Origin: a virus
IMG/VR virus record: IMGVR_UViG_3300018481_000027
Coordinates: 1 to 54,002 of that record
Reading direction: 5' to 3' (one strand)
DNA length: 54,002 nucleotides
This document shows positions 27,097-38,766 of this stretch, piece after piece. Each line of letters starts with the position of its first letter. The first letter of the stretch is position 1. Below the pieces are notes generated by a model that did not search any database, was not told where the DNA came from, and was given only the letters and a program-made list of their open reading frames with translations. Position numbers and translations under genes: made by a program.

Positions 27097-27198
27097 ATAA
27101 ATCCTCGAATTTTGGGTTGGGCAAAAATGAAAGGAGATGATCTTTTCCGAGTTCATCAGTCGGCGACCCCTGGCGGGGTCCTTATCTGGTATCCTTTC

Positions 27199-27223
27199 AC
27201 TATAAGGCGTGGATTCCGCGCGA
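27199..27223 (-). promoter_or_regulatory. Recurring phage promoter (P4)
   Basis: Distal TTCGCG, proximal TCCACG, -10 TATAGT. The distal box is fused to the T run of the preceding terminator. The leader holds a GACCCC/GGGGTC hairpin near 27170. Confidence 0.75.
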
Positions 27224-27256
27224 AAAAAGAGAAGCCGTGTTAGGGCTTCCCTTTCG
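27223..27256 (-). terminator. Intrinsic terminator after the 51-aa gene
   Basis: GGGAAGCC...GGCTTCTC stem with AACACGG loop and T6 on the minus strand. Confidence 0.8.
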
Positions 27257-27264
27257 AGGCGGAA

Positions 27265-27420
27265 CTACTTGGATTGCGCGATACGACGGGCAACTTCCTG
27301 CTTCCAGGCCAGCGAGTTCATGAACTTGCTCCCGGCGGTCAGCAGTCCAGCTGCGACGGCGAGGGCAAGAACAGGATTCTCTTCGGCCTGCTTCTTCAGG
27401 TTGTTGAGGAACTCGTTCAT
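27265..27420 (-). CDS. Small membrane-associated protein (51 aa)
   Basis: ATG behind TAAGGAGACCC. MNEFLNNLKKQAEENPVLAL... has one hydrophobic helix (VLALAVAAGLLTAGSKF) and a basic tail. Monocistronic between P5 and a terminator. Confidence 0.7.
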   Translation of the reverse strand: MNEFLNNLKKQAEENPVLALAVAAGLLTAGSKFMNSLAWKQEVARRIAQSK

Positions 27421-27446
27421 GGGTCTCCTTAGATTGGTTCTTTCTC

Positions 27447-27472
27447 ATTACATGACGTGTTTTACGCGCGAA
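27447..27472 (-). promoter_or_regulatory. Recurring phage promoter (P5)
   Basis: Distal TTCGCG, proximal AACACG, -10 TGTAAT, standard spacing. Confidence 0.75.
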
Positions 27473-27501
27473 AAAGAGAAGCCGTGTTATGGGCTTCTCT
27501 T
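27471..27501 (-). terminator. Intrinsic terminator after the 108-aa gene
   Basis: GAGAAGCCC...GGCTTCTC stem, loop ATAACACGG, T5 merging into promoter P5. Confidence 0.8.
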
Positions 27502-27507
27502 CCGAGA

Positions 27508-27834
27508 TTAGTCCTTCTTCTCGTCAGTCTCTTCAGCGGCCTTCTTGGCTGCGCGATTGGTCTTGTAGTTCTCGTAGCGCTTGGCGGCGTAGTCGAAACT
27601 TGCATCGACGAGCTTGTCCGTATAGGGCTGGGCATTCGCCGCAACTCCCCAGCCAACCATCGGGGATCCGACCTTGACGATCATGTCGTCCTTGTCGAAA
27701 CCGGTGTAGTTGGTGGCGAGGTTTGCGGTAATTACCGTAACCTTGTACGAAACAAGTCCGAAGACAAGCTTCTTCACGGCGTTGCGCGCGGTGAACTGCG
27801 ACTCGTTGTCGTCAGTCTTTTCGGGCTGGGTCAT
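27508..27834 (-). CDS. Hypothetical protein (108 aa), possible membrane association
   Basis: Helical with moderately hydrophobic stretches (KKLVFGLVSYKVTVITANLA; VKVGSPMVGWGVAANA) and a charged coiled tail (AAKKAAEETDEKKD). Behind promoter P6, with AAAGGAAG before ATG. Unknown function. Confidence 0.7.
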   Translation of the reverse strand: MTQPEKTDDNESQFTARNAVKKLVFGLVSYKVTVITANLATNYTGFDKDDMIVKVGSPMVGWGVAANAQPYTDKLVDASFDYAAKRYENYKTNRAAKKAAEETDEKKD

Positions 27835-27869
27835 GAAAATACTTCCTTTCAGAGGGGTTTGTAGGTCTC

Positions 27870-27895
27870 ATTATACAGCGTGAAATATGCGCGAA
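27870..27895 (-). promoter_or_regulatory. Recurring phage promoter (P6)
   Basis: Distal TTCGCG, proximal TTCACG, -10 TATAAT: a full-consensus copy. It directly follows the structured region 27896-28391. Confidence 0.8.
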
Positions 27896-28391
27896 CCGCG
27901 TGTCAAACCATCCCACCGTTCGCACTCTACTGGCGCCGTCGCAGGAGACTAAAGCCGGTCTTTCGTAGAGCAAATCATCAAGAGGGCGCAATGCGGGGAA
28001 CCTTGAGCCAGGCTCCCCAATTTAGCTGTCATTTGAGATCGAGCGTGTTCGCTGGCGGGGAGGTTTCATGACCCCACGAAGACGCAGATCCCCTCTTGGT
28101 GCGTGTAAATATGGTCCCGATGATCGCTCTGAGTTATGCATACGCGATTGAACACTCAGATAAAGTCAAGGACTCCGTCGTTACGAACCTTGACCCACGA
28201 CCATCGGGCTGAGACCCACCCCATCCTTTACCAGGAAGGCTTTGGGTCCTAAAGAAGATAGACTTGAGTGGACGCGTACGGACGATTCCTCCCAGGCGCC
28301 TGACGGCTGCACCCAGATCGTGCCATTTGCTGTCGTTGACTACTACCGAGCGCATTAGCCGCTGGTATCCACTCAGGTTGACCCTATCTCT
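27896..28391 (-). ncRNA. Structured non-coding RNA candidate (~490 nt)
   Basis: Gene-free minus-strand region downstream of the 201-aa gene. Complementary pairs include TGAGTGGA/TCCACTCA enclosing the first ~115 nt, CCCGATG/CATCGGG (28116-28208), GTCAAGG/CCTTGAC, TCTGAGT/ACTCAGA, GGGGA/TCCCC with an inner GAGCC/GGCTC, and CTCTAC/GTAGAG. The density of perfect stems argues for a folded RNA. No open frame with a ribosome binding site is present. Confidence 0.6.
28112..28208 (-). ncRNA. tRNA-like element with acceptor-type stem and encoded ACCA
   Basis: On the minus strand a 7-bp stem CCCGATG ... CATCGGG is followed at once by A-CCA, exactly as in a tRNA with encoded CCA. The 79-nt interior folds into other stems (GTCAAGG/CCTTGAC, TCTGAGT/ACTCAGA) but has no standard T-arm or 7-nt anticodon loop, so it is not called as a tRNA. 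Confidence 0.45.
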
Positions 28392-28997
28392 CTAGGAGAG
28401 CTTGTAGCGGCCGTCTGCCAGACCGGCCTTCAAATCTTCGGCGTCCATGTCGCCCATCTCGGCGACCGTGATGACGCGTGGTTCGGTGACGGCGGGCGTA
28501 ACCGTGTCACCGTTGGCGAAGGCTGCCTCGACCGCCGCTTCTTCCGACGAGGGCCCGTCCTTGGCCTGCTTCTCCGCGATCGCGCGCACCTCCGCAGCGA
28601 TCTTGTCGAGGTTGTGCGGGATGATGCCGTTCATGAACTCGGCGGCTGCTTCGGCGCTCGTGCAGAGATCGAAGATGAGCTGGGAATACGCCTCCGTGGA
28701 GGAGAAATCATCCCAGATCGCCTGGTTCTTGATGAACCGGTCACCTTCCTTCTTGCCGTAGGAGCGCCGGATGATGTCCCGCATCTCCTCCATGATCGCC
28801 TTGCCGTCCTGGGCGTCGACGATACGTTGAAGCTTGGCCTGCATGCCGGTGAGCGTCTTGCCCTCGCTCTCGTACTTGGTGCCGTGCTCTTCCATCTCCA
28901 TCTGGACCAGATCGGCCTTGGAGATATGGAAGTAGTGTTCCTCCGTCACCTCCTGCTGGGTGAACGGGTTCTCGTAGACGATCGTCTTCTTCAGCAA
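28392..28997 (-). CDS. Tail-assembly-chaperone-like / conserved phage protein (201 aa)
   Basis: TTG start behind AGGGGGATATTTCGC. The pattern ENPFTQQEVTEEHYFHISKADLVQMEMEE...YGKKEGDRFIKNQAIWDDFSSTEAYSQLIFDLCTSAEAAAEFMNGIIP resembles a phage family often annotated near tail chaperones. Here it lies some 22 kb from the tail genes, so the role is uncertain. The long leader 28998-29096 may fold (CTCGG/CCGAG). Confidence 0.65.
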   Translation of the reverse strand: MLKKTIVYENPFTQQEVTEEHYFHISKADLVQMEMEEHGTKYESEGKTLTGMQAKLQRIVDAQDGKAIMEEMRDIIRRSYGKKEGDRFIKNQAIWDDFSSTEAYSQLIFDLCTSAEAAAEFMNGIIPHNLDKIAAEVRAIAEKQAKDGPSSEEAAVEAAFANGDTVTPAVTEPRVITVAEMGDMDAEDLKAGLADGRYKLS

Positions 28998-29096
28998 AGC
29001 GAAATATCCCCCTGGTTGGATTCGCGAAGCCTTTGCTCGGTATTGTGCGCTTCACGCATTAGCCGCCATAGACTCCGAGGCGACACCCTGCTAGTA

Positions 29097-29183
29097 CTAC
29101 TTCTCGGCGAGCAGCTTGTCGGCGAGAAACGCCAGCCCGGCGAGGGCGGCGATCACGGAGATGATGATGAGCACGAGCTTCAT
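29097..29183 (-). CDS. Membrane peptide (28 aa)
   Basis: ATG behind GAGGAGGAGGTGACTGCTAC. Product MKLVLIIISVIAALAGLAFLADKLLAEK is a single TM helix with a short charged tail. Confidence 0.65.
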   Translation of the reverse strand: MKLVLIIISVIAALAGLAFLADKLLAEK

Positions 29184-29344
29184 GTAGCAGTCACCTCCTC
29201 CTCGGACGTAGGCTCGTCGGGCTCTTCGGAAGCGGTCTTGGCACAGAGTGCCGTGATGGCTCCGGCGATGAAGCCACCGACCGTGCCGATGGCGAGAAGT
29301 GCTCCCAGCACGATGCCGACGAGAGCGCCGATGGTGAACCTCAC
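29180..29344 (-). CDS. Membrane protein (54 aa)
   Basis: GTG overlaps the next upstream stop (GTGA); stop overlaps the downstream ATG (ATGA). One or two TM helices (FTIGALVGIVLGALLAIG, VGGFIAGAITALC) and an acidic tail. Confidence 0.65.
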   Translation of the reverse strand: MRFTIGALVGIVLGALLAIGTVGGFIAGAITALCAKTASEEPDEPTSEEEVTAT

Positions 29345-29466
29345 GGCGTCGTCACCGTCTCGTCTCCGGGGGCCTTCGGGTCGTCGCCGAGGAAGACCCG
29401 GATATAGCCGGTGTGGTAGCCCATGGCGATGGCTCCGACGGCCACGCCGAACAGGAAGTGCTTCAT
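29341..29466 (-). CDS. Membrane-associated peptide (41 aa)
   Basis: ATG after GGAGACGCC. Short hydrophobic N-terminus (KHFLFGVAVGAIAMGYHTGY) and an acidic tail. Coupled to both neighbours. Confidence 0.6.
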   Translation of the reverse strand: MKHFLFGVAVGAIAMGYHTGYIRVFLGDDPKAPGDETVTTP

Positions 29467-29744
29467 GGCGTCTCCTTCGCGAGCTTCTTGAGCTCCCGCT
29501 TCGCCTTCAGATCCTTGACGATCGTGCGACCGCCGTGGATGGCCAGCAGGGTGACGCCGGTGGCGACGATGCCGCTGGCGATGGCGATGGGGGTGCTGTG
29601 GGTGCGGAAGTTGAAACCGATGAGCTCCACGGCGTGGTCCTTCGCGTGCTCCGCGGCCTCCGCAATATTGCTGGCAGCGTAACCTGCCTGTCGAGCAGCC
29701 AGCTCAGCGTGCTCCTGAGCCAGCTCCTTGGTTGCTTCGGACAT
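29463..29744 (-). CDS. Membrane protein with helical N-domain (93 aa)
   Basis: Ala/Glu-rich helix (1-45), one TM segment (PIAIASGIVATGVTLLAIHGG), then a basic tail (KRELKKLAKETP). Unknown function; part of the small membrane gene group. Confidence 0.7.
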   Translation of the reverse strand: MSEATKELAQEHAELAARQAGYAASNIAEAAEHAKDHAVELIGFNFRTHSTPIAIASGIVATGVTLLAIHGGRTIVKDLKAKRELKKLAKETP

Positions 29745-29777
29745 TTACTCTCCTGTGTTGGTGAAATATGACGGTGT

Positions 29778-30086
29778 TCAGGACCCAGTGCGACCGGCCA
29801 TGTAGCGGAAGGCGCCGACGACGAACATGCTCGCGCCCAGCCCCATGAGGGTGCCGCCCCACACCCGGTTGTCCTGCGCGGCCATTTCGGCCGTCTTGTT
29901 GACGACAGTCCGGTTGATCACCGGAGGCTCGTTTCGGAGCCGGGTGATCTGCTGGTTGAGACCGCTGATCGAGACCTTCTGGTCGGCGATCGTCTCGGTC
30001 ATCTCGTTGTACTTCTCGATCGCGATCTTCACGAACCCGTCACTTGCCGTCTTGAGGGTCTCGACGGTTTCGTTGGTCTCAGCCAT
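29778..30086 (-). CDS. C-terminal membrane-anchored coiled-coil protein (102 aa)
   Basis: N-terminal coiled coil (VKIAIEKYNEMTETIADQKV...), Asn-rich middle, C-terminal TM helix (WGGTLMGLGASMFVVGAFRYM). Tail-anchored topology likely. Confidence 0.7.
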   Translation of the reverse strand: MAETNETVETLKTASDGFVKIAIEKYNEMTETIADQKVSISGLNQQITRLRNEPPVINRTVVNKTAEMAAQDNRVWGGTLMGLGASMFVVGAFRYMAGRTGS

Positions 30087-30115
30087 TGTACTCTCCTTGT
30101 GCTGTGACTCGTGTT

Positions 30116-30352
30116 CTAGTCGTGGAAGAACTTTTTGGACATGGATATGCCGGGCAAGTGGTAGTACTCCTCCTTGAGCGGAGTGGGTAGACTTACCCGA
30201 AGCGGTAGCTCCGCGATACCTTTAGGGGCACCTTGCGGAGGCTCCCAGCGCCGAGCGTCGTCACGCTTTTGATCACGCATGGCGGCTAGAAGTTTGGACC
30301 GAGGATCTTTAGACCGACCCCTCCGACTGTGCCATGATCTGTGCCATGACAT
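30116..30352 (-). CDS. Basic hypothetical protein (78 aa)
   Basis: Arg/Trp/His-rich N-terminus (MSWHRSWHSRRGRSKDPRSK). No clear ribosome binding site, so the start is uncertain; a shorter form from MRDQKRDD is possible. Confidence 0.5.
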   Translation of the reverse strand: MSWHRSWHSRRGRSKDPRSKLLAAMRDQKRDDARRWEPPQGAPKGIAELPLRVSLPTPLKEEYYHLPGISMSKKFFHD

Positions 30353-30381
30353 CAGCCGGAGCTCGGGTTCTGCGAGACGGT

Positions 30382-31188
30382 CTAGTTGTGGTTTGGGCGG
30401 ATGAAATCCTGTCGCGGGAAGGCCGCGAAGTCGATCGCGAGACAGGGACGACCGTCAGGAGCTTCCGCCGTGGTGATCTTCAGCTCCAGAAGGTGATCAC
30501 GATTCCAGCCGACCTCCTCCGACCAGACGGTCTTCTCGAGGCCGAGTTCGTTGTAGAAGAACGTCGCATCGGCGTAGTCGTGATTGTGGATCTCCGCGTT
30601 GGTCGCGTTCTGCGCCCGCTTGATCCCCTCCATCGTGCCGCGGAAATATCGGTTCGTGGCCTCGTCGTAGCAGAGGATCTCGCCCTCGATGATGACCAGG
30701 TTCTGGAAACCGTCGGACTTGTTCACCCGATCCTGGGCGAGCTCGTCGTCGATGGCGATCTTCTTCGGGCCGGTGAGCTTCTCGGCGACCTTCTCCTTGT
30801 ACTCGGAGAGGTTACGCTCGGCCAGCCCGTAGGCAGCAGCGAGGGCAGCGGCCTTCTGAGCCGACACCCGGTTGGACATGATGATCGCCGCGATCGTGGT
30901 GCCGCCGACGAGGACCGGCGGGAGGAAATACGGAATGGCGATCCGAGCCTTCGCCCAGTTGTCGAGCTGCGGACGAGGCTGATCGACATCGATGACGGTG
31001 TCACCGGTCTCCTCAGTCATCATCTTGTACTGCGTTGCGCGGACGATCTCGGCGTACTTGTATCCGCCTCGTCCAGCGAGCACGGCGGTGGCGACGGTTC
31101 CGACGACACCTCCCGCGGTGAGGAGAGCGGCGGCATTGTCCTCAGCGAACTGAGACACCGTCTCCTTGATTCCACTTAGAAACTGCAC
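30382..31188 (-). CDS. DUF6353-like membrane protein B (268 aa), paralogue of 24962
   Basis: GTG at 31188 chosen behind AAGGAG; upstream codons lie in the leader terminator. Two TM regions (AALLTAGGVVGTVATAVLAG and IAIPYFLPPVLVGGTTIAAII), then AALAAAYGLAERNLSEYKEKV and a soluble domain (YFRGTMEGIKRAQNATNAEI...ATFFYNELGLEKT). Same architecture as the 315-aa protein. Transcribed from promoter P7 through a leader terminator. Confidence 0.75.
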   Translation of the reverse strand: MQFLSGIKETVSQFAEDNAAALLTAGGVVGTVATAVLAGRGGYKYAEIVRATQYKMMTEETGDTVIDVDQPRPQLDNWAKARIAIPYFLPPVLVGGTTIAAIIMSNRVSAQKAAALAAAYGLAERNLSEYKEKVAEKLTGPKKIAIDDELAQDRVNKSDGFQNLVIIEGEILCYDEATNRYFRGTMEGIKRAQNATNAEIHNHDYADATFFYNELGLEKTVWSEEVGWNRDHLLELKITTAEAPDGRPCLAIDFAAFPRQDFIRPNHN

Positions 31189-31227
31189 TCTCCTGAACTC
31201 CTTGAGATTGGGGTTGGGTCTCACGAC

Positions 31228-31283
31228 AAAAAAAGAGAAACCTCGCATTGGCATGCGATTGCGTTTTTACGCTGGTCTCTCCT
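31228..31283 (-). terminator. Leader terminator directly after promoter P7
   Basis: GAGAGACC...GGTTTCTC outer stem with inner GCGTAAAAACGC and GCATGCCAATGC hairpins, then seven Ts. It begins at the expected start of the P7 transcript and precedes the 268-aa gene. Confidence 0.75.
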
Positions 31284-31309
31284 ATTAGATGACGTGAATT
31301 TCCCGCGAA
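31284..31309 (-). promoter_or_regulatory. Recurring phage promoter (P7)
   Basis: Distal TTCGCG, proximal TTCACG, -10 TCTAAT. Overlaps the end of the 116-aa gene. Confidence 0.75.
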
Positions 31310-31635
31310 TTCGGGTCAACCCAGAAAACGCAGAAACGACGGGTGGTTCGAGGCGGCCGATTCATCCATCGAACCTCCGCCATGTCCCACCCTCTCTCGC
31401 CTGTTGCTCGCTGTTTACGGAGTTCTTCGAACGCTTCGTCAGGATCATCCGTAGTAAGCAAAATATGGTGTACAAGCTGTTTAGGCGGTGGGCCAAGACG
31501 ACCTTCTCGTCTCAAGCGATCGAGTCTTTTACGAGTCGCTTGCTCCTCGATGTCCCGGCTCCTCCGGCGCTTGTCCTGAAGATATAGGCTTTCAGGAGTC
31601 ACCGGAGGAGCAATGAGCCTTGTCGGGTACTGCAC
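31285..31635 (-). CDS. Basic hypothetical protein (116 aa)
   Basis: GTG start with weak binding site. Basic coiled N-half (KRRRSRDIEEQATRKRLDRLRREG), then a beta-rich part (RRFCVFWVDPNSREIHVI). Unknown function. Its 3' end carries promoter P7. Confidence 0.6.
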   Translation of the reverse strand: MQYPTRLIAPPVTPESLYLQDKRRRSRDIEEQATRKRLDRLRREGRLGPPPKQLVHHILLTTDDPDEAFEELRKQRATGERGWDMAEVRWMNRPPRTTRRFCVFWVDPNSREIHVI

Positions 31636-31638
31636 TCG

Positions 31639-32022
31639 TTAGGCGACGACGGGCTGCGGCTTCTTGCTCACCCAGGTCGAAGCGATGAGGAATAGCGCCG
31701 CGAGCATCGAGACGTAGAGCCCCCAGCTCGGCGAGATGAACTCCGCCGCAGCCTCCTCAGCGCCACCGAGGTTGATCAGGCAGCGAACGCCTTCGCCGAT
31801 GACCGCCAAGCCGACGATGATCGAGACGGGCCGCATGAACTTGCCGGTGAGAGCGGAGGCGATGATGAGCGCGGTGCCGCCGAAAACGACGAGACCGAGC
31901 TCGATGCTGTTGGTGGGGCCGACGCCGAGGATGCCGAAGACGCTGAACCAGGGGCCGATGCCACCGAAGATCAGTACAACGGCGCCGATGGCCAGCGCAG
32001 TGTTACGGTTGAAATTGAACAT
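31639..32022 (-). CDS. Four-TM membrane protein (127 aa)
   Basis: Four hydrophobic segments: TALAIGAVVLIFGGIGPWF, IELGLVVFGGTALIIASAL, PVSIIVGLAVIGEGVRCL, WGLYVSMLAALFLIASTWV. Topology in-in with a short tail. No recognised family. Confidence 0.75.
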   Translation of the reverse strand: MFNFNRNTALAIGAVVLIFGGIGPWFSVFGILGVGPTNSIELGLVVFGGTALIIASALTGKFMRPVSIIVGLAVIGEGVRCLINLGGAEEAAAEFISPSWGLYVSMLAALFLIASTWVSKKPQPVVA

Positions 32023-32032
32023 GTTGGTCTCC

Positions 32033-32326
32033 TTAGTGCTGTCGATGCCCGGGATCGGGCGTGATTGGATGGGGCTTGTCGGACTCGGGTAGATCGTATG
32101 CCTCCCGATACTGCTCTTCGATCCGCTTCATCGCCCGACGATCAGACGAGTCTACGGATATGAAGGTGACGCGGTCCCTTTGACCCTTGAACGTGATGTC
32201 CACGAGTCTAAGGAACTTCCTCTGGCGCCGTTCGATCACGATTTGGTTGATCGCGACCAGTAGAAGCTTGGCGATCTGCCAAGCAACGACGCCGAGAATG
32301 AAATATGCGATGTCTCCGTCGTTCAT
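32033..32326 (-). CDS. Single-pass membrane protein (97 aa)
   Basis: TM helix (IAYFILGVVAWQIAKLLLVAI), basic stretch RRQRKFLR, then a soluble cytoplasmic domain. Unknown. Confidence 0.7.
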   Translation of the reverse strand: MNDGDIAYFILGVVAWQIAKLLLVAINQIVIERRQRKFLRLVDITFKGQRDRVTFISVDSSDRRAMKRIEEQYREAYDLPESDKPHPITPDPGHRQH

Positions 32327-32541
32327 CCCTGCGGTCTCCCTCGTCGATCGACGTAAAGCCCCTCGGGGAGCGCTGCTTGTGCTACTTTCAGCGCTTCGTC
32401 GAGGAGCAAAAGCACGTTCTCCGGTTCTCCCCGGAAGACTATGTAGAAGCCACTGCCTTCTTTCATGTCTCCCAGGGAGATACGGGTCTTCATCAGTTTG
32501 TCATCCGACTCGCGGATGATGGACACCGGAGTGGGAGTCAT
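32323..32541 (-). CDS. Hypothetical protein (72 aa)
   Basis: Soluble alpha/beta protein (VSIIRESDDKLMKTRISLGDM...FYIVFRGEPENVLLLLDEAL). Start overlaps the zinc protein's stop (ATGA). Confidence 0.7.
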   Translation of the reverse strand: MTPTPVSIIRESDDKLMKTRISLGDMKEGSGFYIVFRGEPENVLLLLDEALKVAQAALPEGLYVDRRGRPQG

Positions 32542-32687
32542 TGGTGCTCGCGATCGACCTTAGTCGTATTGGAAAACTGCTTCTTCTCCCGGTACTCACG
32601 GCACGGACAAACTCGGCACGGCCAAGCGAAGGGCTTCTCAAGATCTGGAGGATGTGCTCCCAAATCGTGACCGCATTCGCAGGCCAT
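32538..32687 (-). CDS. Small zinc-binding protein (49 aa)
   Basis: MACECGHDLGAH...WPCRVCPCREYR gives CxC-x-H and CxxCxC ligands. Stop overlaps the next ATG; start overlaps the upstream stop (TGATG). Confidence 0.7.
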   Translation of the reverse strand: MACECGHDLGAHPPDLEKPFAWPCRVCPCREYREKKQFSNTTKVDREHQ

Positions 32688-32797
32688 CAGTAGAACCTCC
32701 GAAATCGTCTCGGGAGGCCCTGGATCTTGCGTCGGGTGCTGCGGCGACCGGCCAGAAATCCAGCCCAGTACGCCACCTTGATGAGCGAGAGCTTCAT
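32687..32797 (-). CDS. Basic membrane-active peptide (36 aa)
   Basis: MKLSLIKVAYWAGFLAGRRSTRRKIQG...: short amphipathic/hydrophobic N-terminus and a very basic tail. Coupled on both sides (ATGA, TGATG). Confidence 0.6.
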   Translation of the reverse strand: MKLSLIKVAYWAGFLAGRRSTRRKIQGLPRRFRRFY

Positions 32798-33060
32798 GAT
32801 TCTATCACCGGTCCTCCTCCGCGCTCGAGATCGGGGCGAACTATCAACGTGGGCGGAGATGTGGTCATGTCATAGGCACGCATGGCGTAATAAGCGCGCA
32901 CCTCGACATCGCTTTCCCGAAGCCAATTCTCGATGGCTTCGGGCCCACTGCAGGCCATCTCCAAGGCCTCGCGTGCGGTACTACCGACTCCTGCGAACGT
33001 CGGAGGAGGACCTGACCAATCGATGCTGTTTCGGAGAACGATATAGACGACGTTGGTCAT
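32794..33060 (-). CDS. Hypothetical protein (88 aa)
   Basis: Soluble protein (VYIVLRNSIDWSGPPPTFAGVG...EALEMACSGPEAIENWL). Small alpha/beta domain. Unknown. Confidence 0.7.
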   Translation of the reverse strand: MTNVVYIVLRNSIDWSGPPPTFAGVGSTAREALEMACSGPEAIENWLRESDVEVRAYYAMRAYDMTTSPPTLIVRPDLERGGGPVIES

Positions 33061-33353
33061 CGCGGTACCACCAGACGGACCGCTCTGACATCGAGACGCA
33101 GATGGTCGGCGATTGCGAAATCTGTGTAACCAGCCTCTCGCATTTCCCGAATCACACCGGGTATCGCCGCTTCTTCGATCTGAGCTCCGTCGAGAAGATA
33201 CTTCATGATCTCTACGGCGCTCATCGACTTAGTCACCTTCTCATTCTCATTCGTGAGTAACGTACCCGCTCGAGCGAAGAGCCCGTCCGAGTAGGCACCC
33301 AGAAAATTAGAAGCGACGAAACCGACGAAGAATCCTGCAACGAGCTTCTTCAC
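33057..33353 (-). CDS. Membrane-anchored protein with HTH-like tail (98 aa)
   Basis: N-terminal hydrophobic helix (KLVAGFFVGFVASNFLGAY), then a helical domain with REAGYTDFAIADHLRLDVRAVRLVV, which resembles a helix-turn-helix. Membrane-tethered DNA binding is possible; weak. Confidence 0.65.
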   Translation of the reverse strand: MKKLVAGFFVGFVASNFLGAYSDGLFARAGTLLTNENEKVTKSMSAVEIMKYLLDGAQIEEAAIPGVIREMREAGYTDFAIADHLRLDVRAVRLVVPR

Positions 33354-33628
33354 GGCTTATCCCCCCTGAGGAGAGCGGCGAAGTTCAGGAGCTTCTTGCC
33401 CCGCTCCTCCAGATCGGCGGCAATCTGGTCAGCCGTCTTCGTCGTGGCCAGAACGGGCATGCCGTTCTTGAGCAGTTGGTACACCCAGCTCTCGCTGATG
33501 CCCATCTCCTGAGCGATGGCACGGTTGGTCATACCTTTGTCCTTGAGCTCTCGCACCTTGGTCAGGCGCTCCTGCATGCGCTGCTTCTGCTCGGCGGCCC
33601 TCTGGGCTCGTTCTTCGGTGATCTTCAT
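33350..33628 (-). CDS. Helix-turn-helix DNA-binding protein (92 aa)
   Basis: VRELKDKGMTNRAIAQEMGISESWVYQLLK is a clear HTH (about 25-55), preceded by a charged coiled coil. It is very similar in pattern to the HTH in the DFDGD protein at 499 (RDKGMGASAIARQMDINEST). A candidate regulator of the recurring promoters. Stop overlaps the next start. Confidence 0.8.
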   Translation of the reverse strand: MKITEERAQRAAEQKQRMQERLTKVRELKDKGMTNRAIAQEMGISESWVYQLLKNGMPVLATTKTADQIAADLEERGKKLLNFAALLRGDKP

Positions 33629-33861
33629 TGACCTCTCACTTTCTGGATAAGTTTGCGAGTGACGATGGCGAACGGGCCGAAGAACACGATGCAGGTTATC
33701 GTGAAGGCTGAGTAATCCCTGAACAGCTCTTCGACGGTATACCTTTCATCTTTCTTTCCTGCAGCGATCCGTTCCTCGACGATCTTGTCCGTCAGTTTGT
33801 AGACGTAGATCGTACCCACAATCACAACCGTGATCATGAATATCCACAGGTTTGCGCTCAT
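33625..33861 (-). CDS. Two-TM membrane protein (78 aa)
   Basis: Start MSANLWIFMI overlaps the 57-aa gene's stop. TM1 LWIFMITVVIVGTIYVY, TM2 FTITCIVFFGPFAIVT, with a charged loop between. Unknown. Confidence 0.7.
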   Translation of the reverse strand: MSANLWIFMITVVIVGTIYVYKLTDKIVEERIAAGKKDERYTVEELFRDYSAFTITCIVFFGPFAIVTRKLIQKVRGQ

Positions 33862-34031
33862 CGGTTTCTCATCTCGCGGACGAAGATCCAGAGCAACCAC
33901 AGGCCACCAGAGAGCATGACCATGAAGCAGTCGAACAGGAAGCGCATGACGCCATAGCGTCGCGGCGGACGAGACGTGATATAGACACGGTCGCGCGGCG
34001 CCTTGCCGTCGTAGTAGAAGACCTTAGGCAT
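33858..34031 (-). CDS. Conserved small membrane protein (57 aa)
   Basis: Basic N-half with aromatic motif (MPKVFYYDGKAPRDRVYITSRP), one TM helix and the end LWLLWIFVREMRNR. This end motif is familiar from other actinophage small proteins. Confidence 0.75.
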   Translation of the reverse strand: MPKVFYYDGKAPRDRVYITSRPPRRYGVMRFLFDCFMVMLSGGLWLLWIFVREMRNR

Positions 34032-34311
34032 CGGGATTCTCCTCGGGATACTTGTCGGCGATCTCCTTCAAACTGGCTTGAATGCCCTCCAGGATGACCT
34101 TGTCGAACTCGCTGGGCTCGACGTCGTTCTCGTGGATAATCCGCCACAGCTGGTTGGCCTCCTGGATCAATTCCTTGATCACCAACGTTAGATCGTCTCG
34201 TTCGTCTATGACCATCTTGAGCGACTTGAGAAGCCGCTTGATCTGGAATATCGCGATGATGTTGAGGCCATACGATCCGCCGACGAGCACCCACGGATAT
34301 GTATCCGACAT
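34024..34311 (-). CDS. Membrane-anchored protein (95 aa), paralogue of 11931
   Basis: Start MSDTYPWVLVGG is preferred; a GTG six codons upstream is possible. TM helix (WVLVGGSYGLNIIAIFQI), then a helical tail with NDVEPSEFDKVILEGI shared with the gene at 11931. Confidence 0.7.
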   Translation of the reverse strand: MSDTYPWVLVGGSYGLNIIAIFQIKRLLKSLKMVIDERDDLTLVIKELIQEANQLWRIIHENDVEPSEFDKVILEGIQASLKEIADKYPEENPDA

Positions 34312-34321
34312 GATGAAACGC

Positions 34322-34480
34322 CTAAGCACCGTACTTCACTCCCTTGGCGGAGGGGTTGCGCTTGAGAGCGCGCCGTTCGGCAACCTCTCGCGACGCGGCC
34401 CGGACCTTGACAGTACGGGTCATGTTGTTCTCGTAGACGAGTACGATCGAGAACACCTGCTTGGACTTCTTGGTCCGCAT
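34322..34480 (-). CDS. Basic small protein (52 aa)
   Basis: MRTKKSKQVFSIVLVYENN... then ASREVAERRALKRNPSAKG. Beta hairpin plus basic helix; possibly nucleic-acid-binding. Behind promoter P8 and its leader terminator, with AGAAAGGATCCGCC before ATG. Confidence 0.65.
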   Translation of the reverse strand: MRTKKSKQVFSIVLVYENNMTRTVKVRAASREVAERRALKRNPSAKGVKYGA

Positions 34481-34502
34481 GGCGGATCCTTTCTGTTGGG
34501 TG

Positions 34503-34586
34503 AAAAAAAGAGAGACCCATGTTGTCTCAGTGCCTCATAAAGGCTCTTCAACTCTGGTGCCTCATAAAGGCTCCAGCATGGGTCTC
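34503..34586 (-). terminator. Branched leader terminator after promoter P8
   Basis: Outer stem GAGACCCATG/CATGGGTCTC encloses two near-identical hairpins (each GAGCCTTTATGAGGCAC) in tandem, then seven Ts. It starts at about the P8 transcription start. The tandem repeat is seen on the + strand near 34531 and 34558. Confidence 0.8.
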
Positions 34587-34612
34587 ATTATGTGGCGTGA
34601 ATTTCCCGCGAA
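34587..34612 (-). promoter_or_regulatory. Recurring phage promoter (P8)
   Basis: Distal TTCGCG, proximal TTCACG, -10 CATAAT. Confidence 0.8.
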
Positions 34613-35035
34613 CTAACCCGCGGCCAATCCTTCGATGACGTAGTGCATCTCCTGGAGATTGTCCAGATGACCGTTACAATGCCGGGACATAGCATGCAAC
34701 GTGTTTCCTGTTGCTTCCGCAGCCGCCTTCATAGACGGCCACATCTGATCAGTCTCGAGACACCGGATGATCTTCCGCGAATAACCACCGTTGTTCACGA
34801 TGTTGTTGATTATCGGAGCCACCGTGTTGTTGAACACCGGGGCAATAGCCGGAGCCTCGATGACGTTGGTGATCATCGTCGGCCGAGCGAACTGCCTGGT
34901 CACGATGACGCTGACTATCGCGGTGGCTCCGCAGGCGTAGACCACCTGATACTTCACGACATGAGCCTTGACACTGCGGAAGGTCTCGTTAGTCTCCTCG
35001 AGCTTCTCGATCCGTGCCTTGAACTTATCGAACAT
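34613..35035 (-). CDS. Membrane protein with NUMOD1-like DNA-binding tail (140 aa)
   Basis: ATG at 35035 behind TAGGAGCAAGG. N-terminal coiled helix, a TM segment (VVYACGATAIVSVIVTRQF), an Asn-rich linker (APVFNNTVAPIINNIVNN), then SRKIIRCLETDQMWPSMKAAAEATGNT...SRHCNGHLDNL. The last part matches the NUMOD1/IENR1 module that recognises DNA in homing endonucleases. No nuclease domain is present. Behind promoter P9 and its leader terminator. Confidence 0.75.
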   Translation of the reverse strand: MFDKFKARIEKLEETNETFRSVKAHVVKYQVVYACGATAIVSVIVTRQFARPTMITNVIEAPAIAPVFNNTVAPIINNIVNNGGYSRKIIRCLETDQMWPSMKAAAEATGNTLHAMSRHCNGHLDNLQEMHYVIEGLAAG

Positions 35036-35065
35036 CCTTGCTCCTAGTTTGGGGTATGGTCTCAG

Positions 35066-35128
35066 AAAAAAGAGAAGAGGATCGGGAGGATTAGGTTTCC
35101 GATCATGCCGACTGGGTCGGTCTCTTCT
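35066..35128 (-). terminator. Leader terminator directly after promoter P9
   Basis: GAGAAGAG ... CTCTTCTC outer stem with an inner CCGACCCAGTCGG hairpin, then TTTTTT, starting at the predicted P9 transcript start. Confidence 0.75.
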
Positions 35129-35129
35129 C

Positions 35130-35155
35130 ATTAGGTGACGTGAATTTCCCGCGAA
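35130..35155 (-). promoter_or_regulatory. Recurring phage promoter (P9)
   Basis: Distal TTCGCG, proximal TTCACG, -10 CCTAAT. Immediately follows the 146-aa gene's stop. Confidence 0.75.
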
Positions 35156-35596
35156 CTACTGGCTCGCCTTGATCGAAGCCTTGGTGCCGAGCATCCGGCA
35201 GAGCAGATTGATCGAGTCGTGCCCGTGAAGTGGCTTGTAGCCTGGGTTGAGATTGTCCTGCTGGTTGCGATGAATCACCTGATCGAAATCGCGCTTGAAC
35301 TCTGGTGAGCGGTAGTAGTTGACCACCTCTCCGAGAGTGTGCTGGTAACGAGTGAGAAACATCGAATCCGCATGTTCCTTGACCTTCTCGGCCCACTCGC
35401 GAGAGGGACGCGGCTCCTCGCCGTGCTCGACGAACTGCATGGCGTCGTTATAGATGCGATCGACCACGAGCTGCTTGAGCTGCTCGACGGTATACATGTG
35501 CGTGGCCTGCAGCAGCGGCAGGTTCCAGATGGGCTCCGGGCGTCCGTGATGAATGCCAACGGTGAGGCAGTTGTAGCCCCAGTTGATTTCAGTCAT
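35156..35596 (-). CDS. Hypothetical protein (146 aa)
   Basis: ATG behind AAGGAGAGTAACC. Soluble, helical, His-rich (MTEINWGYNCLTVGIHHGRPEP...; LLQATHMYTVEQLKQLVVDRI). No recognised family. Confidence 0.7.
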   Translation of the reverse strand: MTEINWGYNCLTVGIHHGRPEPIWNLPLLQATHMYTVEQLKQLVVDRIYNDAMQFVEHGEEPRPSREWAEKVKEHADSMFLTRYQHTLGEVVNYYRSPEFKRDFDQVIHRNQQDNLNPGYKPLHGHDSINLLCRMLGTKASIKASQ

Positions 35597-35598
35597 GG

Positions 35599-35907
35599 TT
35601 ACTCTCCTTGCGTTATGTTGTAAAAATAGTACTTGATTCCCCGTCGATCCGAAAAACTCCAAGGATGGGGGAGGAAGGTTACGTCAACGACATCGTCTGA
35701 AATATCGTTGAATTGCTCAACGGCAGTGTTCCAGTAATGGTGTCCGACGGTGATCTTACGAACTTCGCCGTTTAGCTCGACCGAAAACTCGCCTCTACCT
35801 ACACGTTGCGGGGTTTTTATACCCTTGATCTCCCGAACTTCTAGATCGGGACGCGAGAGAAGTTTTGCTCCTTTCCACGTCACCAACTCTTCCGGATTCC
35901 AGTCCAT
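35599..35907 (-). CDS. Beta-rich hypothetical protein (102 aa)
   Basis: MDWNPEELVTWKGAKLLSRPD... with strand-rich core (FSVELNGEVRKITVGHHYW). Starts at the stop of the HD gene. Unknown. Confidence 0.7.
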   Translation of the reverse strand: MDWNPEELVTWKGAKLLSRPDLEVREIKGIKTPQRVGRGEFSVELNGEVRKITVGHHYWNTAVEQFNDISDDVVDVTFLPHPWSFSDRRGIKYYFYNITQGE

Positions 35908-36413
35908 TACTGTCGTTGTTCTCCTGGTCGACGTTTACGCGGAATTCGATTTATCGCCAAATCACGCGCGTCACTGGTACTCAAATATGGTGTATCCGGC
36001 CAGATTCCCTTGCGATAAAGATCTAGCCGATCGGCGTCCCAGCACACAGCGATGGTGGGATCGGTGCTGATCAGTCCATCACTGTGCTCTACACAGGCCT
36101 CGAAAAACAGCTCTTGCCGTCGCTCAGTGAGCAGCTGTCCGAGGATGAGTTCGTGACGCTGGTTGATGCGCTCCCACAGCGTGAAGCCACGCATGCCGTG
36201 ACCCGGGTCGTCTCCGTCGTTCACGCGCATGGAGTCGTGAAACAGCGCATATAGAGCCACGACCTCGAGGTCTGCGGTGATCTCCGTCCCGGTCAGTAGT
36301 TCAGCATTCTTCCAAACGCGGAACCAGTGATCGAGTCCGTGCATTCGACTCTGCAGAATATTCAACGTGCTTGACTCCATCAGCACGTAAGGCAGACACC
36401 GAGCAGCGATCAC
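35907..36413 (-). CDS. HD-domain phosphohydrolase
   Basis: 168 residues. HGLDHWFRVWKNAELL, ALFHDSMRVNDGDDPGHG (HD pair), ACVEHSDG and CWDADRLDLYRKG supply the metal-binding set of the HD superfamily. Such enzymes hydrolyse nucleotides or other phosphate esters; a role in nucleotide signalling or pools is possible. GTG overlaps the stop of the 53-aa gene. Confidence 0.85.
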   Translation of the reverse strand: MIAARCLPYVLMESSTLNILQSRMHGLDHWFRVWKNAELLTGTEITADLEVVALYALFHDSMRVNDGDDPGHGMRGFTLWERINQRHELILGQLLTERRQELFFEACVEHSDGLISTDPTIAVCWDADRLDLYRKGIWPDTPYLSTSDARDLAINRIPRKRRPGEQRQ

Positions 36414-36571
36414 GGCTTAGCCGGGCTTTGCCAGGTGTGTGGCGTGGCTTCAGCCCCCTTGTCGTGCCCCTTGGGTAGGTAGCAAGGGATGTTCGTTCCT
36501 GGATGACAGGTTGGATCGCTATGATCCGGAGGGACGAGGCACTGCTCCTCCCGGGAAATAAGATCGGTCAT
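36410..36571 (-). CDS. Small Cys/His protein (53 aa)
   Basis: ATG behind TTAGGAGCAGC. C-x10-C/H...PCYLPKGHDKG pattern of a small zinc-type protein seen in actinophages. Preceded by a terminator without a visible promoter. Confidence 0.65.
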   Translation of the reverse strand: MTDLISREEQCLVPPDHSDPTCHPGTNIPCYLPKGHDKGAEATPHTWQSPAKP

Positions 36572-36602
36572 GCTGCTCCTAAGATTGGTCAGGGGGTCTC
36601 AG

Positions 36603-36634
36603 AAAAAATGAGAGCCCGTGTGAGGGGCTCTCAT
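36603..36634 (-). terminator. Intrinsic terminator after the 72-aa gene
   Basis: AATGAGAGCCCC...GGGCTCTCATT stem with CACACGG loop and T6. Confidence 0.85.
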
Positions 36635-36640
36635 TGGGCA

Positions 36641-36859
36641 CTACGCGGGGTGGTTGATGCGTGCGGTCTCGAGGTTGAGGCGAGCGGTCTCGAGGTTCAT
36701 CCGACCGGTCTTGATGGACACGATCACGGGAACCGCCGTCAGGGCCAGCGGAATCGTGGTGACTCCGACGGTGACAGCGATGCTCTTGATGCGGTCCAGC
36801 TTGGACGGCTTGATGGCCTCGACGTTGCGCTCGGCCTGCGACTCGTTGTGCGGGGGCAT
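36641..36859 (-). CDS. Membrane protein with tandem heptad repeat (72 aa)
   Basis: ATG behind TAGGAGAGTTGCT. TM helix (IAVTVGVTTIPLALTAVPVIV) then the repeat MNLETARLNLETARIN. Monocistronic behind P10. Confidence 0.7.
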   Translation of the reverse strand: MPPHNESQAERNVEAIKPSKLDRIKSIAVTVGVTTIPLALTAVPVIVSIKTGRMNLETARLNLETARINHPA

Positions 36860-36890
36860 AGCAACTCTCCTAGAGTTAGTAGTGGCTTTC

Positions 36891-36916
36891 ATTATGTGGC
36901 GTGAAATTTTCGCGAA
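36891..36916 (-). promoter_or_regulatory. Recurring phage promoter (P10)
   Basis: Distal TTCGCG, proximal TTCACG, -10 CATAAT. Confidence 0.8.
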
Positions 36917-36920
36917 AACG

Positions 36921-36950
36921 AAAAAGGAAAGCCCCTGTGTGGGGCCTACC
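36921..36950 (-). terminator. Intrinsic terminator after the 53-aa gene
   Basis: AGGCCCC-ACACA-GGGGCTTT stem-loop with T5 just before promoter P10. Confidence 0.8.
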
Positions 36951-36951
36951 T

Positions 36952-37113
36952 TTAGGCGTAGATCTGAACAATGCCGGGGACGAGCGTGGTCTCCTCCAGC
37001 TTGGCCTGTGACGTAGCGATCATCTTCTCGTAACGGTACGCGGCGACGAAGTCGCGGATACGGCTACGGTTCTCGGTGATCTCGGTCTTGATGGCCGTGA
37101 TGGGGTTGAACAT
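36952..37113 (-). CDS. Small helical protein (53 aa)
   Basis: ATG behind TTAGGAGACTATT. MFNPITAIKTEITENRSRIRDF... amphipathic helices; unknown. Monocistronic behind P11. Confidence 0.65.
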   Translation of the reverse strand: MFNPITAIKTEITENRSRIRDFVAAYRYEKMIATSQAKLEETTLVPGIVQIYA

Positions 37114-37144
37114 AATAGTCTCCTAAGTTTGTGTTTAGTCTTCT

Positions 37145-37170
37145 ATTATACCCCGTGAAAAACACGCGAA
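37145..37170 (-). promoter_or_regulatory. Recurring phage promoter (P11)
   Basis: Distal TTCGCG, proximal TTCACG, -10 TATAAT; full consensus. Confidence 0.8.
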
Positions 37171-37177
37171 TTGCAGG

Positions 37178-37211
37178 GAAAAACCTAGAGACCGTGTTAG
37201 GGTCTCTTGGT
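37178..37211 (-). terminator. Intrinsic terminator after the 63-aa gene
   Basis: AAGAGACC-CTAACAC-GGTCTCT stem-loop followed by a short T run. Confidence 0.75.
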
Positions 37212-37216
37212 TTGAA

Positions 37217-37408
37217 CTAGAACTTGCGGGCGAGGATGACGGTGGCGTTCGGCTCAAGTGTGGCCAGAGCATCGACATGTTCCTGGATCTTGCGCTGACG
37301 CTCCTGCTCCTCCCCAGCTGCAGCGAATGCAGTGAGGACGAAGAGGGCGGCGCAACCCAGGCCAGTGCCGGTGTTACGGGCGTACTTCTTGGCGGTTTCC
37401 TTGGTCAT
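37217..37408 (-). CDS. Single-pass membrane protein (63 aa)
   Basis: Basic N-terminus, TM helix (TGLGCAALFVLTAFAAAG), charged helical tail (EEQERQRKIQEHVDAL). Behind P12. Confidence 0.7.
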   Translation of the reverse strand: MTKETAKKYARNTGTGLGCAALFVLTAFAAAGEEQERQRKIQEHVDALATLEPNATVILARKF

Positions 37409-37440
37409 GGTTTTCTCCTTTTGAGTTTGATTTAGTTCTC

Positions 37441-37466
37441 ATTAGAGGCCATGAAATTCCCGCGAA
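37441..37466 (-). promoter_or_regulatory. Recurring phage promoter (P12)
   Basis: Distal TTCGCG, proximal TTCATG, -10 TCTAAT. Confidence 0.75.
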
Positions 37467-37495
37467 ACTGAAAGCCCGTGTTAGGGGCTTTCGAG
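37467..37495 (-). terminator. Hairpin terminator after the 39-aa gene
   Basis: GAAAGCCCC-TAACAC-GGGCTTTC stem-loop; T run is weak. Confidence 0.65.
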
Positions 37496-37500
37496 TTTGA

Positions 37501-37620
37501 TTAGCTCTTCTTCGCGAGGCGAAGGTCGTTCAGAGCGATCAGGGACATGAGGGCCATGCCGACCCACGGGCCGGTCTTACGGGCGATGGGGGCGGCAACA
37601 GCGATCTGGTCCTTGAGCAT
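37501..37620 (-). CDS. Membrane peptide (39 aa)
   Basis: ATG behind AAGGAGATTCAA. MLKDQIAVAAPIARKTG..., hydrophobic helix (WVGMALMSLIALNDL) and basic end. Behind P13. Confidence 0.6.
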   Translation of the reverse strand: MLKDQIAVAAPIARKTGPWVGMALMSLIALNDLRLAKKS

Positions 37621-37654
37621 TTGAATCTCCTTGCGTTTGAGGTTGATACTTCTC

Positions 37655-37680
37655 ACTATAGGGGGTGAAAAATACGCGAA
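37655..37680 (-). promoter_or_regulatory. Recurring phage promoter (P13)
   Basis: Distal TTCGCG, proximal TTCACC, -10 TATAGT. Confidence 0.75.
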
Positions 37681-37681
37681 G

Positions 37682-37712
37682 CCCAAAAACCAAAGGCCCG
37701 GATTAGGGGCCT
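37682..37712 (-). terminator. Intrinsic terminator after the 27-aa gene
   Basis: GAGGCCCC-TAATC-CGGGCCTTT stem-loop and TTTTT. Confidence 0.75.
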
Positions 37713-37717
37713 CAGGT

Positions 37718-37801
37718 TTAGAGGAAAATCTTCCACTGGATGAAGATTCCATTACCGAAGTCTTCGATCATGATGATCGGCTTGGGCTTCTTGGTATGCA
37801 T
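37718..37801 (-). CDS. Small peptide gene (27 aa)
   Basis: ATG behind AGAAAGACCCCC. MHTKKPKPIIMIEDFGNG...: basic N-terminus, hydrophobic end. Supported mainly by its own promoter-terminator unit. Confidence 0.55.
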   Translation of the reverse strand: MHTKKPKPIIMIEDFGNGIFIQWKIFL

Positions 37802-37832
37802 GGGGGTCTTTCTGGTAGAGGGGATTGGTCTC

Positions 37833-37858
37833 ATTAGATCCCGTGAATTCTACGCGAA
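37833..37858 (-). promoter_or_regulatory. Recurring phage promoter (P14)
   Basis: Distal TTCGCG, proximal TTCACG, -10 TCTAAT. Confidence 0.8.
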
Positions 37859-37860
37859 TG

Positions 37861-37893
37861 CAAAAAAAGAGAAGCCGTGTTTTGGCTCCTCTC
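37861..37893 (-). terminator. Intrinsic terminator after the 78-aa gene
   Basis: AGAGAGGAGCC-AAAACAC-GGCTTCTCT stem-loop and seven Ts. Confidence 0.85.
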
Positions 37894-37899
37894 TTGAGG

Positions 37900-38136
37900 T
37901 CAGTCGAGGGGGTTGTTAGCTTGTGCGTTGTGTAGCTCTATCTGAAGTCTCAGCTTCTCCACTTCGAGTTCAAGTACGTACACTTGCGCATTGGCTTCAA
38001 ACTTCGCCGTCTTCATCTTCGCGTATTGCTTGTGAAGTTCGGTGAGGGTGAAATATGCGGCAGTGCCGTACACGATCTCTTTGGGGACCTTGTTGAGGCT
38101 TTCGAGAAAGCTACCCAGAAACAATAGGTCGAACAT
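37900..38136 (-). CDS. Membrane-associated coiled-coil protein (78 aa)
   Basis: Hydrophobic N-terminus (MFDLLFLGSFLESL), then a helix and a C-terminal coiled coil (NAQVYVLELEVEKLRLQIEL). Behind P15. Confidence 0.7.
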   Translation of the reverse strand: MFDLLFLGSFLESLNKVPKEIVYGTAAYFTLTELHKQYAKMKTAKFEANAQVYVLELEVEKLRLQIELHNAQANNPLD

Positions 38137-38157
38137 AATCTCCTTTCGTTTGATCTC

Positions 38158-38182
38158 ATTAGAGGCCGTGAAATAGACGCGA
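38158..38182 (-). promoter_or_regulatory. Recurring phage promoter (P15)
   Basis: Distal TTCGCG, proximal TTCACG, -10 TCTAAT. Confidence 0.8.
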
Positions 38183-38212
38183 AAAAGGAAAGACCGTGTA
38201 TGGTCTCTCCTC
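38183..38212 (-). terminator. Intrinsic terminator after the 71-aa gene
   Basis: GAGAGACC-ATACAC-GGTCTTTC stem-loop and TTTTT merging into promoter P15. Confidence 0.75.
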
Positions 38213-38218
38213 TTGAAT

Positions 38219-38434
38219 CTAGAACTGCAGAATATGCAGATCGCTGTCGTTCTTGAATGCTTCGAACATCGACTCCTGGTCCATGATCTGCAGGTTGAAC
38301 TCGGTATTGCTGAGGGGCGTTAGGACCATGTAAACATCGTCTCCAAACACCTCGCTAACAGCATCGTTACCGGTCAACTGACTGATCACACCACGGATGT
38401 CGTCTCCGAGCATAATAGCAAAGCGGGTAGGCAT
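38219..38434 (-). CDS. Hypothetical protein (71 aa)
   Basis: ATG behind CAAGGAGACTTT. Soluble acidic protein (MPTRFAIMLGDDIRG...VYMVLTPLSNTEFNLQIMDQE). Behind P16. Unknown. Confidence 0.7.
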   Translation of the reverse strand: MPTRFAIMLGDDIRGVISQLTGNDAVSEVFGDDVYMVLTPLSNTEFNLQIMDQESMFEAFKNDSDLHILQF

Positions 38435-38458
38435 AAAGTCTCCTTGGGTTATAGGTTC

Positions 38459-38484
38459 ATTATATGCCCTGAAAAACCCGCGAA
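38459..38484 (-). promoter_or_regulatory. Recurring phage promoter (P16)
   Basis: Distal TTCGCG, proximal TTCAGG, -10 TATAAT. Confidence 0.75.
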
Positions 38485-38512
38485 AAAGGAAAGCCCGTGT
38501 GGACTCTCCTAT
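38483..38512 (-). terminator. Intrinsic terminator after the 74-aa gene
   Basis: GGAGAGTCC-ACAC-GGGCTTTCC stem-loop (with G-U pairs) and TTTTT. Confidence 0.65.
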
Positions 38513-38516
38513 GGAA

Positions 38517-38741
38517 CTACTCGATGATCTTGAAGATGATGTAGGTAATGTTGTGGCCAGCGATGGGTACATCGATGACGATTCCATACTTACCAGGCTC
38601 GATGATTACTCCTTCCTGGATGGCATCGACAAGAGCCATTGCGTATGGCTTCTCGTCGGGCGTGTTCCAGGTAATGGGTAACGTAGGCATGGTGTCGAAA
38701 TCGACGACGAACACTTCGCGACCGTCAACGGTCTGCAACAT
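38517..38741 (-). CDS. Hypothetical protein (74 aa)
   Basis: ATG behind ACAAGGAGATAAC. Acidic N-half, hydrophobic beta-rich C-half (YGIVIDVPIAGHNITYIIFKIIE). Behind P17. Unknown. Confidence 0.7.
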   Translation of the reverse strand: MLQTVDGREVFVVDFDTMPTLPITWNTPDEKPYAMALVDAIQEGVIIEPGKYGIVIDVPIAGHNITYIIFKIIE

Positions 38742-38766
38742 GTTATCTCCTTGTTTGAGTGGGTTC

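Follow-up and report, generated by a model that had tools for sequence, protein, structure and literature searches.

The window analyzed here is a 54,002-nt stretch of viral DNA (IMG/VR record IMGVR_UViG_3300018481_000027). At positions 27896-28391 it contains a gap between a gene of 201 aa (28392-28997) and a gene of 108 aa (27508-27834), both on the minus strand. No convincing ORF was found in this gap, the ORFs inside it reaching at most 73 aa. The upstream gene encodes a phage tail assembly chaperone, and an array of RNA elements starts at its stop codon. The downstream gene is unnamed: it had no PHROG match and a protein search found no relatives of it, while by eye a related-looking gene lies 3' of the RNA in L002, L003, L004, L117, and L118. 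These belong to the relatives that we collected by searches with the chaperone gene (IMG/VR contigs L002-L004 and L117-L125). The features of the locus are as follows.

28392-28997, minus: upstream gene, 201 aa, Phage_TAC_17 (PF23803; Pfam E 3.5e-40; phrog_4282, E 8.6e-42)
28388-28400, minus: CUCUCCUAGAGAG hairpin over the stop codon, before copy A
28263-28388, minus: copy A, probable family member (blastn homology to L118 and L003; P1 8/8 paired)
28375-28368 / 28272-28265, minus: P1 of copy A
28388-28380, minus: seed-like GAUAGGGUC of copy A
within copy A: P2 hairpin, ACCAGCG-GCUAAUG-CGCUCGGU
28340-28323, minus: motif GUCAACGACAGCAAAUGG of copy A
28107-28222, minus: copy B, the element reported earlier, likely a degenerate member (fold z -2.9)
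28217-28210, minus: seed-like GGGUCUCA of copy B
28208-28198 / 28126-28116, minus: P1 of copy B, which holds CCCGATG/CATCGGG
28194-28188 / 28171-28165, minus: P2 of copy B
28160-28154 / 28134-28128, minus: P4 of copy B
28115-28107, minus: tail ACCAUAUUU of copy B
27975-28102, minus: copy D, probable family member (model R1 10.4 bits, E 0.03; fold z -3.1)
28098-28091 / 27986-27979, minus: P1 of copy D
28077-28070, minus: seed-like GUGGGGUC in the P2 loop of copy D
28036-28025, minus: UCAAAUGACAGC of copy D
27989-27984, minus: GCGCCC of copy D
27888-27971, minus: element C, GCUCUACGAAAGACCGGC...GGCGCCAGUAGAG (conserved form GCUCUACgAAAgaCCGGC...GGCGCCaGUAGAG), then a GCGAAC...GUUCGC stem
27864-27897, minus: early-type promoter of the next gene, TTCGCG..TTTCACG..TATAAT, with leader GAGACC
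27508-27834, minus: downstream gene, 108 aa, unnamed (synteny by eye)

The CUCUCCUAGAGAG hairpin is also present in L003, L117, L118, and L004, where it occurs twice, the second time before copy B of that contig. As a side observation, about 14 kb separate the chaperone homologue from the tape measure gene (42872-48751); the two are usually close, e.g., in Faecalibacterium phage FP_oengus, and the window differs in this respect.

Structure of the intergenic region

The first-pass annotation had pointed out a 7-bp stem followed by ACCA, embedded in a larger foldable region. We found the stem on the minus strand (CCCGATG 28208-28202 / CATCGGG 28122-28116, then ACCA 28115-28112), which is the strand of the neighboring genes, and with one G-U pair the helix grows to 11 bp (28208-28198 / 28126-28116). 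The region is indeed structured: the minus strand of the gap folds at -202 kcal/mol with a z-score of -3.0, and none of 100 shuffles was as good (the plus strand gave z -2.5). The count of "at least five other perfect stems" was not confirmed: five stems of at least 7 bp exist in total when the reported one is included, which is not an unusual number. It is only mildly above the average of 2.3 in shuffles, 15 of 200 of which have at least five. Copy B contributes three of the five stems (P1, P2, and P4), and copies A and D contribute their P1 helices; it is this identity, and not the number, that makes them meaningful. The reported stem is P1, the closing helix, of copy B, the middle one of about three tandem copies (A, B, and D).

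The stem and its 3' end had been read as a tRNA mimic or decoy, and this part of the annotation did not hold. Its remark that the interior lacks a T-arm and an anticodon arm was accurate, as copy B folds into P1, P2, and P4 only: the interior is a P2 hairpin and a second hairpin, as in the family plan described below and unlike a tRNA. ARAGORN reported zero tRNA and zero tmRNA in the window, and Rfam gave nothing at gathering scores in the window and nothing at E<=10 in the region. The resemblance to tRNA and tmRNA is limited to one copy, where ACCA comes after an acceptor-like stem; the copies have no detector match, conserved CCA, T-arm, or anticodon arm. The ACCA itself corresponds to the first letters of CCAUAUUU and is not conserved: the tail after P1 is GGG-UCCCAUAUUU in L004, CACUACG-CCCUAUAUUU in L003, UUGGG-CCCAUAUUU in L118, and UUUUAUG-CUCUAUAUUU in L117, and the box that recurs after P1 in relatives is AUAUUU, not CCA. 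The same gap does contain T-arm-like hairpins in L003 and L118, which would favor the mimic; the Rfam tRNA score is at noise level in L003 and absent in L118. Taken together, we consider a tRNA mimic or decoy very improbable.

These hairpins (CCAGGTTCGAATCCTGG and CGGAGTTCGAATCTCCG, at about 5734-5843 of L003 and about 5975-6050 of L118) show a possible acceptor pairing and were accepted by no tRNA detector; they may be decayed or mimic tRNAs. The sole tRNA detected is a separate tRNA-Met in L117. Among other known RNAs, GOLLD and ROOL are also long structured non-coding regions of phages, but the window has no Rfam match at E<=10 and its units measure about 100-150 nt instead of forming one giant fold. 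No covariance-model match to GOLLD, ROOL, or any other Rfam family was found.

An RNA family downstream of the chaperone gene

Searching phages with blastn using the window stretch gave no real match even at E<=10; the family surfaced only via the neighboring gene. Close relatives have a non-coding gap in the corresponding position, with sequence shared with the window. In Streptomyces, Gordonia, Curtobacterium, and Arthrobacter phages the same gap contains UUAAACGACAGCC or a sequence close to it. Scanning viral contigs with a pattern returned 24 matches, Rhodococcus phages among them, and all loci that were read have one layout. Starting from three different single copies, blastn matched 83, 69, and 46 phage records, which are overlapping sets; many of the matched loci carry no annotated feature. 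The family is widespread in phages of soil bacteria (Streptomyces, Gordonia, Rhodococcus, Arthrobacter, and Curtobacterium), mostly unannotated. Its site is fixed, directly 3' of the Phage_TAC_17 chaperone gene in all loci read, and the array of the window occupies the same position.

Another pattern, CTCTACNAAANNCCGNCT, was too loose and gave mostly chance matches, and it was dropped. We found no chaperone homologue in bacterial genomes; the RNA-pattern matches there, judged en bloc, look like chance, as they are scattered over unrelated phyla. Nothing was found in plasmids. In Rainydai (L136, 2325-2570), the stretch after the chaperone gene has GUAGGGGUCUCACC without the UUAAACGAC core, and is perhaps a decaying copy. 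No description of the RNA was found in the literature searched, most subscription journals lying outside that search, and the family is not in Rfam 15. Base-pairing phage sRNAs are already known; the RNA family itself is undescribed. Highly expressed non-coding regions have been reported in the transcriptome of Rhodococcus phage WC1, a temperate phage of cluster CA (PMC10986025); no link between them and the RNA family is shown.

To describe the family we aligned 21 copies, leaving out the window (alignment A2). In each compact unit P1 encloses the P2 hairpin, a conserved unpaired stretch UUAAACGACAGC, and in many cases another hairpin, before P1' closes the structure. In this alignment 97.9% of the cells are paired, compared with 84.6% in shuffled and 36-54% in slid controls; as the sequences are related, the shuffle control is generous and the slid control is the better one. 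Double changes occur in 10 of the 16 pairs, chiefly in P2, whose compensatory variants include GAUCAGC/GCUGAUC, GCUUGGC/GCCAAGC, and GUUUGGC/GCCAAAC, among others. Most of the copies in A2 were found by a pattern containing UAGGGGUC, and this selection accounts in part for the seed being invariant in the alignment. That the fold reflects nothing more than a GC-rich spacer pairing by chance would fit the unexceptional number of perfect stems, equalled by the shuffles mentioned above; it is contradicted by the covariation, conservation, and synteny of the family, and of all readings considered here it is the one to which we give the least credence.

A covariance model built from the 21 copies without the window (R1) matched each of six known phages exactly once, with 24-110 bits. 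Among the window-related contigs it matched L004 1571-1667 (E 0.001), L119 6581-6695 (E 0.006), L004 1761-1886 (E 0.03), and L003 5617-5712 (E 0.07). A default search of the window returned nothing. In an unfiltered search of 1.4 kb of the window, copy D was the best match (10.4 bits, E 0.03), copy B scored 3.7 bits, and copy A was not significant. Aligning the derived copies with MAFFT (A3) misregistered P1 and P2, and the result was set aside; no second model was built for this reason, and P1 was counted on hand-placed helices. Counted in this way, every one of the 11 derived copies examined, A, B, and D included, has a P1 without unpaired positions, with differing sequences, so the conservation of the reported stem in relatives, on which the first-pass annotation had made its reading depend, was borne out. 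P2 is clean in some derived copies and bulged in others, A and D pairing only with bulges. After P2, UUAAACGACAGC has a near-match in copy A (GUCAACGACAGC) and in copy D (UCAAAUGACAGC), and is absent from copy B.

Copy A is linked to the family by blastn via L118, L003, and L119: the alignment with L118 shows 76% identity across 192 nt (E 1e-31), and that with L003 shows 75% across 124 nt, both taking in the end of the gene. Copy B is tied to the family by its position, by the P1-P2-P4 plan, and by 14 identical nt (GGGTCTCAGCCCGA) that it shares with copy B of L004, which is in the same place and is itself matched by R1 (23 bits, E 1e-3). Taken together, copies A and D are probably members of the family, and copy B is a likely, though degenerate, one. 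Element C is a different hairpin element, outside the R1 family. It is 81% identical over 122 nt to L002 6840-6956 (E 6e-22; the alignment takes in the downstream promoter) and was recognized by eye at about 5825-5905 of L002 and 1677-1760 of L004, being conserved in three genomes and present twice in L002. Upstream of the chaperone gene, hairpin-like stretches ending in AUAUUU were seen in the window (29005-29095, minus strand) and in L002 (4866-4950). The one in the window contains GGCGGCTAATGCG, as does copy A, and these stretches are possibly more degenerate copies.

Seed loops and leaders of early genes

In most members an apical loop, GUAGGGGUCUC, exactly mirrors as reverse complement a leader, GAGACCCCUAC, that about 5-10 early genes of that phage have between the -10 box and the Shine-Dalgarno sequence; the Gordonia form of the loop is GUAGGGGUCC. 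We counted the antisense matches of every 8-mer of the RNA in the sense strand of the rest of the genome. Words of the loop ranked at the top of all 8-mers in SheRa (11 matches), Rickmore (8), Kardashian (12), Pepy6 (12), and L003 (7). They also came first in L117, L118, and L123, on 2-4 matches only, were tied with another word in L124, and were not first in L004, L119, Eevee, Argan, or, with words of 8 nt, the window. The antisense matches are leaders, GAGACCCCTAC, located behind the -10 box and 20-28 nt ahead of start codons. The sites lie upstream of starts in 7/7 cases in SheRa (p 2e-10) and 10/11 in Kardashian (p 3e-12), and upstream of annotated starts in only 6/12 in Pepy6 and 4/8 in Rickmore. 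The set of 7-mers over-represented ahead of genes largely coincides with these words.

The leader word accompanies the seed. ACCCCTA occurs in 5/6, 10/12, 4/5, and 10/16 of the candidate promoters of four phages with a seed-bearing RNA, and in 0, 0, 0, 1/9, 0, and 0 of those of six phages that have the same promoter type without RNA or without seed; this is a non-phylogenetic comparison of ten hand-picked, related genomes, so that the p-values given above overstate independence. The six comparison phages are Niktson, Daddyjeff (which has the lone ACCCCTA), Shiba, and Count, all without the RNA, and Eevee and Argan, which keep the RNA core and have neither the seed nor such a leader. It follows from these last two that pairing cannot be the whole function. 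The seed-leader duplex amounts to about -21 to -26 kcal/mol, compared with 6-8 for opening the loop; when single sequences are folded, some of the seed is often taken up in pairing within the RNA itself.

The lineage of the window departs from this pattern, as both leaders and seeds have diverged in it. In copies A and B the seed is located 5' of P1. The promoter at 27864-27897 is one of 16 candidates of its type in a 16-kb stretch, and their leaders are diverse, with GAGACC in 5/16 and GACCCC in none. Copy A's GAUAGGGUC exactly complements one leader, a 9-mer at 39246 (minus strand), where shuffles average 0.2, and GGUCUC of copy B complements 6/18 leaders, the most of any 6-mer listed. The pairing between seeds and leaders in the window is weak and not significant, and we take it as suggestive at the level of sequence. 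The copies may each act on a separate subset of genes, or may have decayed in part. At 27198-39246 (minus strand), the window has an array of uniform promoters with at least 13 sites, TTCGCG-N4-TTTCACG-N3-TATAATGAGA, ahead of very small genes, which often have a terminator-like hairpin behind them.

Possible functions of the RNA

The reading that we prefer, with a probability of roughly 55%, is that the element is a phage-encoded antisense sRNA controlling early mRNAs, which would have expanded in the window into an array with diverged seeds. It draws on what the sequences establish, namely the family, its covariation, its fixed gene neighborhood, and the loop-leader complementarity in single-copy relatives. 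The RNA would be transcribed and then excised, probably at the flanking AUAUUU boxes, which are RNase E-like RN|WUU sites; this flank is missing where a promoter abuts P1. The released RNA would act in trans by pairing with the 5' ends of early mRNAs, and the pairing would alter their translation or stability, e.g., in an early-gene shut-off. Complementarity of the seed to mRNA 5' regions, as expected of a trans-acting antisense RNA, is found in the single-copy relatives and is weak in the window.

Part of the evidence can be read in other ways. The transcript of the chaperone gene could act in cis, as a 3'-UTR or leader element that base-pairs with the next gene's GAGACCCC leader, or as an attenuator or processing signal. 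In SheRa, L143, L146, L157, and others, the leader GAGACCCCTAC of the next gene is indeed found about 100 nt downstream, and many copies are flanked by AUAUUU boxes. However, L142, L151, L153, L155, L163, and others keep the seed without a closely following GAGACCCC leader, and the other matches are scattered over about 5-10 genes several kb away, which makes an element acting in cis unlikely, if worth keeping in mind. We are a little more doubtful that the structured core (P2 and UUAAACGACAGCCG) is what functions, by binding a ligand or a protein of phage or host origin, with the loop complementarity being secondary. The retention of the core without the seed in Eevee and Argan argues for it, and so does the lineage of the window, where the seed moved outside P1 and the core stayed; against it, the 21 classical copies (most of them found by a pattern with part of the seed) show almost no variation in the seed, which tracks the leaders across the compared genomes.

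Because GAGACCCC overlaps the promoter discriminator, part of it may lie outside the mRNA, and the RNA could instead regulate transcription, its seed pairing with the non-template strand of the open promoter, or the whole acting as a 6S-like promoter mimic that binds RNA polymerase. GAGACCCC lies in the bubble, directly after the -10 hexamer, and in Kardashian it is better conserved than that hexamer. Yet the copy of GAGACCCCTAC before the Shine-Dalgarno sequence of SheRa gp34 has no clear -10 box, which suggests action on RNA, and the family has no Rfam 6S match and a compact closed fold, not a long 6S-like bubble. We regard regulation at this level as somewhat less probable again than a function of the core.

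An antisense sRNA of this kind would resemble those of enterobacterial phages and prophages, which are also structured and have a seed against mRNA 5' regions near the ribosome-binding site. It would differ from them in that many targets of its own phage share one promoter-adjacent leader, and in belonging to a family without Rfam relative. Like sRNAs released from 3'-UTRs by RNase E, it is encoded directly behind a coding gene, with AU-rich boxes flanking many copies; unlike them, its processing is inferred and two or three tandem copies can occur. More than 100 sequenced actinophage records, mostly blank in annotation at this place, carry this undescribed RNA family supported by covariation. 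If the antisense reading is correct, there would be a target rule that is specific and easy to test (seed GUAGGGGUCUC versus leader GAGACCCCUAC), an RNA-based account of how dispersed small early genes are coordinated or switched off, and a reason why promoters share sequence beyond the needs of the -10 box. A bolder version, which we put forward tentatively, is a widespread RNA regulon, in which one phage-encoded RNA pairs with the shared leader of nearly all early promoters, as mRNA or in the open promoter, and serves as a single early switch; the array of the window would be a co-evolving multi-guide system whose seeds diverge along with the leaders.

Elsewhere in the window (499-3387, minus strand), a 962-aa protein matches phrog_4291, annotated as RNA-dependent RNA polymerase, and a gene of similar length is located near the end of other phages with the RNA.
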